Assembly: GCA_017652265.1 (NCBI GenBank)
Contig: JAGCBH010000024.1
Span: 1-35,720 of the forward strand
Source: a bacterium
Lineage (GTDB): Bacteria; Cyanobacteriota; Vampirovibrionia; Gastranaerophilales; Gastranaerophilaceae
Reading direction: 5' to 3'
DNA length: 35,720 bases
Position 1 is the first letter of the stretch, and each line of letters opens with the position of its first letter. The translations under genes and the position numbers were made by a program. This document shows positions 27,340 to 34,663 of this stretch, piece by piece. The notes beneath the pieces are model-generated. The model saw nothing but the letters and a program-made list of their open reading frames with translations. It was not told where the DNA came from and did no database searches.

Positions 27340-27550
27340 GAATTTCTCTTATAACACCGTAAATACCCGAAAAGATTGCTTTAGTGCTGCTATATTTCTA
27401 TCCTGACACGGTTCGGCAGATTTCGCCATTTACGTTTTTATCGTCAACAAAACTCATTGTATCCGATGTGTTCTGCAAACCCTCACAACAGGCTCTGCAC
27501 CCCGCATAAACTTCGGGTCAAGGGATTGCAATTCCCCGTGGAACACGACT
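27340..27550 (-). ncRNA. ffs: Signal recognition particle RNA (large form)
   Basis: The minus strand carries the conserved SRP domain IV. GTCAGG (27402-27407) and AGCAGC (27386-27391) are the two internal-loop strands, separated by an apical ATA-GAAA-TAT hairpin. Flanking pairs continue the long helix: CGTAAAT on the 5' side pairs with ATTTACG on the 3' side, and CGAAA with TTTCG. The 5' third (27465-27550) has three smaller hairpins and a TGTTG turn, recalling the Alu domain of large bacterial SRP RNAs. This is the RNA that, with Ffh, targets membrane proteins. Ends are approximate: the 5' end is set by a promoter at 27556-27584, and the 3' end by the last pairing strand. The core is clear; the Alu-like part is an inference. 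Confidence 0.82.
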
Positions 27551-31361: not shown

Positions 31362-32450
31362 TTGAAAAAAATAATAATTTGGCTGGTATTTTGTTGTTTA
31401 ATGCTGACGGGCTGTGTGCAAAAAAACGGCGCGGAAATAATCAGTTTTGCTACTTGGGGTTCTAAGACGGAAGTTGAAATTCTGAAAGGCATTATAAATG
31501 ATTTTGAAACTCAAAACCCCGATATTAAAATCAGTTTCATGCATATTCCGCAGAATTATTTTCAGAAAATACATCTGTTATTTGCATCAAATACCGAACC
31601 TGATGTGATTTTCATAAATAATCTTTACTTGCCTGTGTATGCAAATTCCGGTAAATTGCTTGAATTAGAGCCTGATAAAACTGTTTACAATGAAAAAGTT
31701 CTGCAAACACTGTCGTGGAAAGGTAAATACTATGCAATTCCAAGAGATATTTCACTTTTGGTAATGTATTATAACAAGGATTTATTCAGACATTTCGGAA
31801 TAACAGAACCTTCGGACAGTTGGACAACGGACGATTTTTTGAAAAAATCCAAAGAGATAAAGGACAAAACGGGCAAGTTTGCAGTCAGTTTTGAAGAGGA
31901 TGCTCTTTTTTATCTGCCTTATATTATGAGTAACGGCGGCGATTTTTTATCTATGGATGAAAAAGCGGTTAAATCAAGGCAGTCCTACGTAGATTTGGCT
32001 TATAAAGAAAATTATGCTCCAAGAAAAGACCAGAGTGCATCCATGACTATGGCGCAAATGTTTTTGAAGGAAGAAATTGCCATGCACCTGACTGGTCGTT
32101 GGCTTTATCCTAAATATATGGAAGATGCAAAATTCAAAATCGGTACTGTTACGTTCCCGAAAGGGACGGCGGGTTCTGTTGTGTCTTTGGACGCTTCCGG
32201 CTGGGCAATTTCAAAATCTTCCAAGCACAAAGATGCTGCGATGAGATTTATTGAATTTTTATCGTCAAAACCAACAATAGAACAATTCACCCAAACTGGA
32301 TTAATAATTCCTGCAAGAAATGACGTTAAAGCGGAAAATTCTGAAGCATATTCGCAGGCACTTAAAACCGCACTTCCAACACCTGTTACGGTTGACTATA
32401 ATAAAATTCTCGATAAACGCAAAGAAGAAATCAATAAACTGTTTAATTAA
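31362..32450 (+). CDS. ABC transporter solute-binding lipoprotein (family 1, sugar-type)
   Basis: A 362-residue extracellular solute-binding protein. The first 17 residues are a lipoprotein signal ending in the lipobox LTGC, so the mature protein is lipid-anchored at Cys18. The binding-protein fold is evident from ISFATWGSKTEVEILKGIIN, DFETQNPDIKISFMHIP, TEPDVIFINN and YAIPRDISLLVMYYNKDLF, and the hinge DASGWAISKSSKHKDAAMRF. These are typical of family 1 (maltose or glycerol-phosphate type) proteins. The start is TTG 31362: it follows AAGGTGA at the right distance, and it alone gives a proper signal peptide. No permease or ATPase genes adjoin, so its transporter is elsewhere or it works with the preceding membrane protein. 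Ligand unknown. Confidence 0.88.
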   Translation: MKKIIIWLVFCCLMLTGCVQKNGAEIISFATWGSKTEVEILKGIINDFETQNPDIKISFMHIPQNYFQKIHLLFASNTEPDVIFINNLYLPVYANSGKLLELEPDKTVYNEKVLQTLSWKGKYYAIPRDISLLVMYYNKDLFRHFGITEPSDSWTTDDFLKKSKEIKDKTGKFAVSFEEDALFYLPYIMSNGGDFLSMDEKAVKSRQSYVDLAYKENYAPRKDQSASMTMAQMFLKEEIAMHLTGRWLYPKYMEDAKFKIGTVTFPKGTAGSVVSLDASGWAISKSSKHKDAAMRFIEFLSSKPTIEQFTQTGLIIPARNDVKAENSEAYSQALKTALPTPVTVDYNKILDKRKEEINKLFN

Positions 32451-32478: not shown

Positions 32479-32507
32479 TTGACAACGGTGTTTTTTTTAC
32501 GGATAAT
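32479..32507 (+). promoter_or_regulatory. Strong promoter of rplU-rpmA
   Basis: Perfect TTGACA (32479-32484), 17 bp, GATAAT (32502-32507). This is one of the best promoter matches in the window. It predicts RNA from about 32514, about 100 nt before rplU. Confidence 0.75.
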
Positions 32508-32513
32508 TCAGAG

Positions 32514-32615
32514 TGATGTATTAGCGGGCAACTCGTTCCTAAACATTTTTAGCCGAAATTATATTTGTAATTTTGCCCTGAAAATTACGAGTCCCATAGT
32601 GAAAGGAATATTAAC
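32514..32615 (+). promoter_or_regulatory. Structured 5' leader of rplU with competing helices
   Basis: Three pairings are visible. GTAATTTT/AAAATTAC is a perfect 8-bp hairpin (32567-32574 with 32581-32588). GGGCAA (32526-32531) can pair with TTGCCC (32573-32578). GGG plus ACTCGT (32526-32536) can pair with ACGAGT plus CCC (32587-32595). The second excludes the other two, as in a two-state switch. Ribosomal protein operons often carry such autoregulatory leaders. The ligand, perhaps L21 itself, is an inference. Confidence 0.55.
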
Positions 32616-32966
32616 ATGTTCGCAATTATTGAAAAAGACGGCAAACAGTATCAGGTAGAAGAAGGACGTTACCTTGATATGGATTTGATGGATGCCGAAA
32701 AAGATTCTAAAATCGTTTTTGATAAAATCGTTATGTTAGTTAACGGTAAAAAATCAAAAGTAGGTCAACCGTACGTAACAGGCGCAAGCGTTGAAGGTTC
32801 TGTTATGATGCACGGTAAAGACAAGAAAATTATTGTTTTCAAACAAAGACCTAAAAAAGGTTACAGAAAAAAACAAGGTCACAGACAAGGTTTTACGCGT
32901 GTTATGATTAACAAAATCAGAACTTCCGCTCAAAAGAAAACCGAAGAAACAGCAGACGCTGAATAA
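32616..32966 (+). CDS. rplU: 50S ribosomal protein L21
   Basis: Large-subunit protein that binds 23S rRNA near L20; 116 residues. The N-terminus [17 protein letters not shown] (1-17) and the core [21 protein letters not shown] are diagnostic. The RNA-binding segment [20 protein letters not shown], near residues 72-91, is followed by FTRVMINKI. The C-terminal tail adds about 12 acidic residues ([10 protein letters not shown]). AAAGGAA precedes ATG 32616. It is co-transcribed with rpmA 33 bp downstream, the universal L21-L27 order, behind a strong promoter and a structured leader. Confidence 0.97.
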
Positions 32967-32999: not shown

Positions 33000-33257
33000 A
33001 TGGCACATAAGAAAGGTATGGGATCTACCCGTAACGGTCGTGACTCCGAAGCGAAACGTTTAGGCGTTAAGAAATTCGGCGGCGAATCCGTTAAAGCAGG
33101 TAACATCATCGTTCGCCAGAGAGGAACTAAATTCCACCCTGGTAACAATGTTGGTATCGGCAGTGACGATACTTTGTATGCTTTGATTGACGGAAACGTT
33201 AAATTCGAAGATTACAGACGTGACAGACGTCAGGTATCAGTTTACGCCCAGGGGTAA
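33000..33257 (+). CDS. rpmA: 50S ribosomal protein L27
   Basis: Large-subunit protein whose N-terminal tail reaches the peptidyl-transferase centre; 85 residues. It starts directly [20 protein letters not shown], so it lacks the cleavable N-terminal extension found in Firmicutes-type L27. The rest ([20 protein letters not shown], then [20 protein letters not shown]) is canonical. A strong AAGGAG site lies at 32986-32991. A hairpin terminator follows at 33279. Confidence 0.97.
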
Positions 33258-33278
33258 GGAACCTAAAAATTTAAACAA

Positions 33279-33311
33279 AAAACACCCGCTTGATTTGGCG
33301 GGTGTTTTTTT
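33279..33311. terminator. Bidirectional terminator between rpmA and the ion transporter gene
   Basis: Eight-bp GC-rich stem ACACCCGC/GCGGGTGT (33282-33289 and 33298-33305) with an eight-base loop. T-runs follow on both strands, so it can end rpmA (+) and the transporter gene (-). Confidence 0.88.
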
Positions 33312-33322
33312 GTTGAATAATT

Positions 33323-34663
33323 TTATCTTAAATATCTGAGATACAAGTAAACTGACGATAATGCAAGGGAAATAATAGTTATCAAAGCGCCGTACTTCAT
33401 AAAACGCATGAATGAAATCGGATGTCCGCTTGAAGTTGCGGTTTCACTCACTAACACATTAGCGGCAGCGCCTACAAGAGTGAAGTTACCACCCAGGCAA
33501 GCACCTAACGATAATGCCCACCATAACGGTGAATGTTGACCTGCGACTGATGCCAATGCGTGTGCATTTTCAGGACTTATCACTTCCGATATCAAAGGTG
33601 CCATTGTTGCGGTGTACGGGATGTTGTCCACAATTCCGGAAATTATTCCGGAACCCCATAAAATCAGCATTGTTGCTACTTCAAGACTGCCGTGGGTTAC
33701 TTCGATAAGTTTGTTGGCTAAGAATGAAATTCCGCCTGTTGCCTCAAATCCGCCTATTATTATGAACAAACCGACAAAGAAAAATATTGTGAGCCATTCA
33801 ACATCAGCGTAAATTTCTTTCGGTTTTTTAAACATAAGTAAAAATGATGCGCCTGCCATAGCAAAAACATAAGCCGGAACACCGGTTATGTCGTGGGTTA
33901 CAAATCCGAAAATGACGAATAACAGAGTTAAAATTGAACGAACCATGAGACGTCTGTTTTGTATCGTTTTTTGGGTATCAAGATTTGCTATATATTTCAT
34001 TCTTTCAGGTGTTATTTTCAGTTGCTTTTTGAACATAAACGTCAAAATGCCGATACTTATAAAGAATATCAGTGTAACAATCGGAGTAAGTTCATTTACA
34101 AAATCCATAAAACTCAAATTTGCTCTGGTACCTATTATGATATTTGGAGGATCACCGATGAGAGTTGCTGTTCCGCCAATGTTTGAAGCTATTGTTTCTG
34201 CTATCAAAAAAGGAATAGGGTCTATATCCAATTCTTTTGCGAGAACAAATGTTATAGGAATCATAATAACGATTGTTGTTACATTATCCAAAAATGCTGA
34301 CGTTATGGCGGTAAATGCCGAAACTGTAAACAATATTGCAATCGGATGTCCTTTTGTCAGTTTAAGCAGTTTTATGGCAATCCACTTAAAAATACCGCTT
34401 TGATTGGCAATATTTACGATAATCATCATACCGATAAGGAGAAATATTACCTGAAATTCAACATAATTGAAAACTTCTTTTACGTATTCACCTTCATTAA
34501 TTCCGCCGGAAAAAGGTAAAATCCCCAAAAGAAGTGTCATTGATGCGCCCAAAAGTGCTATAACGGACTTTTGAAGTTTTTCCGTAGCAATAAAAAAGTA
34601 CGAAACCAATAAAATAAGACCTGAGATGAGCATTCCATGCTCGGCAACCGTATCGTGAAACAT
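33323..34663 (-). CDS. ArsB/NhaD-type ion transporter (TC 2.A.45/62-like)
   Basis: A 446-residue inner-membrane transporter with about eleven to twelve hydrophobic segments. Ion-transporter superfamily signatures are FTAITSAFLDNVTTIVIMIP, ASNIGGTATLIGDPPNIIIG and, in the second half, GIISGIVDNIPYTATMAPLI and SLGACLGGNFTLVGAAANVL. The two symmetric GG-T-(L)-(I/V)-G loops and the paired DN(V/I) motifs mark ArsB/NhaD-family carriers. These include Na+/H+ antiporters, arsenite pumps and the P protein. No ars genes are nearby, so Na+/H+ antiport or an organic-anion role is more likely, but undecided. GAGAG precedes ATG 34663, with TATAAT further upstream. Confidence 0.85.
   Translation of the reverse strand: MFHDTVAEHGMLISGLILLVSYFFIATEKLQKSVIALLGASMTLLLGILPFSGGINEGEYVKEVFNYVEFQVIFLLIGMMIIVNIANQSGIFKWIAIKLLKLTKGHPIAILFTVSAFTAITSAFLDNVTTIVIMIPITFVLAKELDIDPIPFLIAETIASNIGGTATLIGDPPNIIIGTRANLSFMDFVNELTPIVTLIFFISIGILTFMFKKQLKITPERMKYIANLDTQKTIQNRRLMVRSILTLLFVIFGFVTHDITGVPAYVFAMAGASFLLMFKKPKEIYADVEWLTIFFFVGLFIIIGGFEATGGISFLANKLIEVTHGSLEVATMLILWGSGIISGIVDNIPYTATMAPLISEVISPENAHALASVAGQHSPLWWALSLGACLGGNFTLVGAAANVLVSETATSSGHPISFMRFMKYGALITIISLALSSVYLYLRYLR

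Follow-up and report, generated by a model that had tools for sequence, protein, structure and literature searches.

A conserved folded leader upstream of rplU–rpmA in Gastranaerophilales and its plausible role in feedback by ribosomal protein L21

What is the function of the leader that separates the promoter of rplU from its start codon in Gastranaerophilales? The question is raised by a window of 35,720 nt (the whole stretch of DNA analysed, contig JAGCBH010000024.1), which comes from a gut Gastranaerophilales genome, i.e., one of the non-photosynthetic Cyanobacteriota. The parts of the locus are collected in Table 1. The near-perfect promoter that a first-pass annotation had seen before the leader is indeed there, downstream of a same-strand gene that ends at 32450, and its position suggests a probable transcript start at about 32514. 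As judged by eye, most leaders have GTATTA with almost the same spacing to the −10 box. A strict rule scored a promoter in 108 of 123 distinct upstream regions; among the 15 that failed it, L110 ends at a contig edge and the other 14 carry, by eye, TTGACA with a −10 box of the TAAT or AAAT type. The second gene of the operon is presumably rpmA, a name given from its sequence. It follows rplU on the same strand within 200 nt in 169 of 189 loci (some genomes are repeated among them) and at 213–336 nt in 16 further loci, the remaining four ending too early to tell. Elsewhere in the window, a terminator-like hairpin that scores on both strands (33277–33310) lies between rpmA and a convergent gene (33323–34663), and a bacterial small SRP RNA is matched on the minus strand at 27352–27437 (51.4 bits).

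Table 1. Features of the rplU–rpmA locus in the window, and copies of the dispersed repeat in related loci.
Feature	Position	Strand	Basis
Sigma-70 promoter of rplU, TTGACA-17-GATAAT	32479–32507	+	11/12 consensus matches
Probable transcript 5′ end with conserved word GTATTA	32514–32525	+	inferred from promoter position
P1 5′ strand (GGG)	32526–32528	+	predicted fold and homologous leaders
2-nt bulge (CA) at the P1/P2 boundary	32529–32530	+	predicted fold and homologous leaders
P2 5′ strand (ACTCGT; conserved core TCGT)	32531–32536	+	four core pairs formed in 113/113 leaders
One-sided junction J (TCCTAAA), conserved as U..UAAA	32537–32543	+	[UC]AAA in 99/113 leaders
Variable apical hairpin domain P3	32544–32586	+	predicted helices
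Recurrent apical word AGCCGAAAT inside P3	32551–32559	+	enrichment in leader interiors
P2 3′ strand (ACGAGT)	32587–32592	+	homologous leaders
P1 3′ strand (CCC)	32593–32595	+	homologous leaders
Shine-Dalgarno GAAAGGA, 5 nt past P1 and 8 nt 5′ of ATG	32601–32607	+	
rplU, ribosomal protein L21	32616–32966	+	similarity to L21 orthologues
rpmA, ribosomal protein L27 (downstream gene of the operon)	33000–33257	+	operon with rplU
Copies of the ~140-nt repeat	L199:2070–2362; L205:1333–1855; L101:1828–1965 and 2401–2512; loci L207–L236 (1501 onwards)		

L21 was found in 55 of 59 relatives. From these we took 50 rplU loci (G048, G052, G055, G056 and G057 were left out), to which a search of genome contigs added 80 more. 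Compared over their last 130 nt, 123 of the resulting 130 upstream regions differ from one another; setting aside nine without the motif and L110, truncated by its contig end, 113 leaders remained. The P1 and P2 blocks were placed by position weights from 19 seeds, chosen by eye with knowledge of the pairing. Both blocks scored above 6 in 100 regions; L039, L041 and L042 were placed by hand, and for the other sub-threshold leaders the best-scoring placement was taken and read by eye.

All 113 leaders can be described by one common fold: helix P1, an internal loop of 2–3 nt, helix P2, a one-sided UAAA junction, a variable domain P3, and the closing strands P2′ and P1′. P1 consists of GGG or AGG with CCC or CCU, the P2 core is UCGU/ACGA, and the whole element measures 37 to 215 nt (median 55). 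The [UC]AAA of the junction was sought inside its first 10 nt; a first, strict pattern had found no match in 11 of the 113. Within the P2 core, pair 1 is U-A in 102 leaders and C-G in 11; pair 2 is C-G in 106, U-A in six and U-G in one; pair 3 is U-A in 107, C-G in four and U-G in two; the fourth is an invariant G-C, and all four are formed in every leader.

These substitutions were compared with 500 null replicates evolved on the L21 tree with the number of changes per column kept (our own script, not R-scape). The association observed at the three variable P2-core pairs was equalled or exceeded in 0, 1 and 0 replicates, and that of the outer P1 pair in none; at this pair 37 of the 113 leaders have A-U, 34 have G-C and 39 have no standard pair. 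The test covered 99 column pairs, and low null counts also occur in some unexpected ones, e.g., B2-P2b1 (5/500). Two P2 positions beside the internal loop are paired in just 20 and 36 of the 113 leaders, and 105 of them offer the 3′ base closest to P1 a partner at one or the other of two 5′ positions (mean 91.6 and maximum 98 when dealt anew). In a 23-row MAFFT alignment, 86.0% of cells are paired versus 73.2% in shuffles, double changes occur at 10 of the 13 pairs, and the covariation score is 0.437 versus 0.205 in shuffles (0/500) and at most 0.177 for slid structures. The structured leader claimed by the first-pass annotation is borne out by homologues and covariation alike, with compensatory changes in the P2 core of relatives' leaders that go beyond the tree-based nulls. 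Judged by this comparison of sequences, the helix of GGG/CCC plus (A)CUCGU/ACGAG is conserved far beyond chance, and a folded leader before rplU is kept by evolution.

The apical domain is far less uniform. P3 differs widely among leaders and is usually stacked directly on P2: a helix of at least four pairs starts 0–1 nt from P2 in 100 of 113 leaders versus at most 62 in 300 sets with re-dealt 3′ ends. In the minimum-energy fold of the window leader, its helices are 32545–32552/32578–32585 and 32554–32562/32567–32575. The apical part contains GCCGAA in 27 of the 113 leaders, including the window, mostly at a similar place (equivalent to 27 of the 62 leaders with a loop of at least 34 nt), and the longer word AGCCGAAAT is strongly enriched there: the leader interiors, 6,022 nt in all, contain it 10 times, versus 12 times in 814,756 nt on both strands of the same loci, those 10 included. 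The word may be a second contact site or the relic of an insert. Folded alone, the window leader is unremarkable (z = −1.35; 23 of 200 shuffles equally good), so that the case for the leader rests on comparison. The mean predicted probability of its P2-core pairs is 0.20, which suggests that the window copy may need a bound protein to a greater degree than other copies usually do.

The first-pass annotation had gone further and read the leader as a two-state switch, in which GGGCAA/TTGCCC competes with GGG-ACTCGT/ACGAGT-CCC, the latter enclosing a perfect 8-bp hairpin. In the window each helix is able to form: GGGCAA/TTGCCC (32526–32531/32573–32578) and ACTCGT/ACGAGT (32531–32536/32587–32592) are perfect 6-nt inverted repeats, and since both use A32531 they are mutually exclusive, as proposed. 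The hairpin GTAATTTT/AAAATTAC is likewise a perfect 8-nt inverted repeat (32567–32574/32581–32588); because it overlaps the ACGAGT strand by 2 nt (32587–32588), its full enclosure by P2 is impossible. Only one of the two competing arrangements is conserved in relatives. A stretch fully complementary to the element's first 6 nt was found in one of 113 leaders, the window itself (L001), and shuffles yield a mean of 0.86; with GGGCAA/TTGCCC at the level of shuffles, the two-state switch is unsupported. Within this set of leaders the competing helix is a private coincidence of the window and no conserved state. Neither a terminator nor an anti-Shine-Dalgarno partner was found in these leaders, and we rejected the switch as extremely unlikely.

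The motif is restricted to one part of the order. It occurs in 41 of the 50 rplU loci of relatives, i.e., in all 35 loci of the window's family and in every fetched member of families f5 (1/1), f6 (2/2) and f7 (3/3). By eye it is absent from the same-order families f2 (0/2), f3 (0/4) and f4 (0/2) and from the class outgroup (0/1), and our model R1 had no match at E ≤ 1 in 37 loci drawn from f2–f4, from other orders and from elsewhere in the phylum. At E ≤ 0.01, R1 gave one match each in 12 of 117 class genomes, and all 11 of the 12 matches that were checked lie directly 5′ of rplU; among the given loci it had one off-target match (E = 0.087). R1 is insensitive to long P3 variants: it found 33 of 40 motif loci, 17 of them its own seeds, and the seven it missed are leaders with a long P3. 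The window leader was matched with default filters (E = 1.9e-4), went unreported with filters off, and the window genome was missed in the 117-genome scan.

Some loci deserve a separate mention. L053, L058 and L066, from records titled Fusobacterium or Brachyspira, contain a Gastranaerophilales-like L21 and the rplU leader and are probably misnamed genomes. Loci L037, L040, L048 and L049 of f3 and f4, in which this leader is missing, share another short hairpin-like word near the presumed transcript start, GCGCUUCNAUNGCG or ACGC..AGCGU. Distant phylum members (L167, L168, L170, L171 and L172) have other common words 5′ of rplU (ACCGC..., GGCGAGUC or GCGCGUCUC), possibly yet another leader.

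How could such a fold act on the operon? The predicted probability that the Shine-Dalgarno sequence is unpaired has a median of 0.84 over the 113 leaders (0.53 in the window), its distance from P1 is 5–6 nt in 80 of them, and the anti-Shine-Dalgarno words TCCTTT and CCTTTC occur in none. With the site mostly open and such a word missing from all 113, sequestration of the Shine-Dalgarno was rejected. Transcription attenuation was rejected as well, as there is no intrinsic terminator in window positions 32514–32616 and no run of five T/U between P1 and the ATG in any of the 113 leaders. Since the fold abuts the ribosome-binding site, the Shine-Dalgarno is open and a terminator is lacking, steric repression of translation by a bound protein would be the simplest mode of action.

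We hypothesize that the element is a new r-leader through which L21 (less likely L27) represses translation of rplU–rpmA, an explanation to which we give somewhat better than even chances, ligand and mechanism being putative. What was found agrees with other r-leaders: the element occupies the predicted 5′ UTR of a ribosomal-protein operon, its conserved structure covaries, and in the significant genome-wide matches checked it is always associated with rplU. Free L21 would bind the P2-UAAA-P3 region and lock the hairpin, whose P1 strand usually lies 5–6 nt 5′ of the Shine-Dalgarno; loading of the 30S subunit would then be hindered, and both rplU and the coupled rpmA would be translated less. 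Once rRNA takes up L21, the leader would be free again, the exposed Shine-Dalgarno would be used and synthesis would resume. Such a scheme would require neither a two-helix switch nor a transcription terminator. Several observations weigh against it: E. coli rplU–rpmA is reported to lack feedback, the motif was not seen in f2–f4 or the class outgroup, no likeness to 23S rRNA was detected, and in the window itself the P2 core has a low predicted pairing probability and the Shine-Dalgarno is less open than the median.

The open Shine-Dalgarno could also be taken to mean that no ligand is involved, the leader serving to protect the 5′ end from nucleases or to keep the ribosome-binding site open, without feedback. 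The near-consensus promoter and the many P3 variants and inserts that are tolerated fit this possibility too. However, a mere stabiliser needs no fixed P2 core, no UAAA on one strand and no fixed distance to the Shine-Dalgarno across families, and we regard a ligand-free leader as unlikely. A metabolite riboswitch, an RNA thermometer or a small-RNA target might be suspected from the conserved one-sided UAAA junction and from the apical word that recurs in a subset of leaders. The location before a ribosomal-protein operon, the short core (37 nt at least) and the lack of any Rfam riboswitch match make these very improbable.

If a protein binds, it is reasonable to ask which one. The leader's location and conservation, together with what other r-leaders do, point to L21 as the most likely repressor; feedback by L21 through this leader is plausible. 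Recognition by L27 or another ribosomal protein would fit the proximity of rpmA on the same strand in most loci, and feedback could profit both L21 and L27. However, the leader sits before rplU, the Firmicutes leader is also named after L21, and in some genomes as much as 336 nt, or else an inserted repeat, comes between rplU and rpmA and leaves the leader undisturbed; a ligand other than L21 seems to us quite unlikely, more so than a leader without any ligand. The best match of R1 to 23S genes (E. coli and two order members) was not significant (11.4 bits, E = 1.1) and a loose topology scan of 23S rRNA gave no convincing site, so mimicry of rRNA lends no support to L21 as the ligand. On these two scans mimicry of 23S rRNA is unsupported, and neither of them bears out a likeness between P2 and the rRNA around E. 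coli position 1270 or helix 46.

The inserts tolerated in P3 are of interest by themselves. Ten leaders have a loop of 98–195 nt with words in common with sequences elsewhere, and an alignment of 21 copies gave a repeat of about 140 nt with the consensus RUGCGAGGGA...CCCGAGUGCAUU...AAAGCCG...AGGCG...GUARGCU, often in tandem. Its model, R2, has matches in 11 of 40 genomes of the order, up to 20 per genome; the 11 include the window's own genome, whose sole match (E = 9.9e-4) overlaps a reading frame and is probably due to chance. In 29 of 30 loci examined the repeat lies between genes, including the rplU leader and the rplU–rpmA spacer, and it is found inside operons of essential genes. Other sites are presumably rpoB–rpoC, atpA–atpG and tonB–exbB, by gene names given from sequence. 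Six loci yielded no Rfam family match for it. Of 11 predicted pairs one has a double change, which lends the structure weak support, and the repeat is probably a structured RNA. Its presence in P3 indicates that this domain tolerates large inserts while P1 and P2 persist. We see an even chance that Gastranaerophilales evolved an L21-responsive leader not described before, with no sequence relationship to that of Firmicutes, and that its P3 is a neutral docking site, where the repeat has inserted and left the regulatory core intact.

As to known leaders, neither the window leader nor those of 20 related loci have an Rfam 15 match over a family's cut-off, and at E up to 10 there are chance-level matches only, none of them to the Firmicutes L21 leader (RF00559) at the window leader. 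Among 40 genomes of the order, nothing was over the cut-off of the RF00559 model, which does match in Bacillus subtilis and Lactococcus lactis, and the two sub-threshold matches in the order are not at rplU. The first-pass view that this is not the Firmicutes leader agrees with these searches, and RF00559 was rejected. No leader of the Gastranaerophilales lineage was found in searches of open-licence articles. In Eckert and Weinberg (2020; PMC7247131), who report 20 new r-leaders, L21 is absent from the ligands of Table 1, and neither L21 and L27 nor Cyanobacteria and Melainabacteria turn up in the main text. The main text of PMC8040213 mentions L7/L12, L20 and L10 and has no L21, rplU or Gastranaerophil-.

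With this leader, an uncultured gut lineage has a concrete, testable candidate for the regulation of one of its ribosomal-protein operons. If a separate L21-responsive leader did arise here, autoregulation by bL21 would have more than one evolutionary origin and more than one RNA solution, and this would be a second type of leader for L21. Should L21 bind, two unrelated RNAs for one protein could be compared, and the way in which bL21 recognises RNA could be studied on a core of as little as 37 nt.

Set beside known systems, the Firmicutes leader RF00559, located 5′ of rplU in Paenibacillus according to PMC5670726, is alike in being a structured 5′ leader of rplU; the two are told apart by model search. 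The E. coli rplU–rpmA operon comprises the same two genes and differs in being reported without feedback: it is unresponsive to an excess of its own products according to the review PMC10931766, which cites Aseev 2016. The human-microbiome RNA candidates of PMC8040213 likewise include leaders recognised by comparative genomics before ribosomal-protein genes of gut bacteria. With a ligand that is putative here, the Gastranaerophilales leader has in common with the r-leaders of PMC7247131 a covarying 5′ UTR structure, association with one ribosomal-protein operon and restriction to a lineage.
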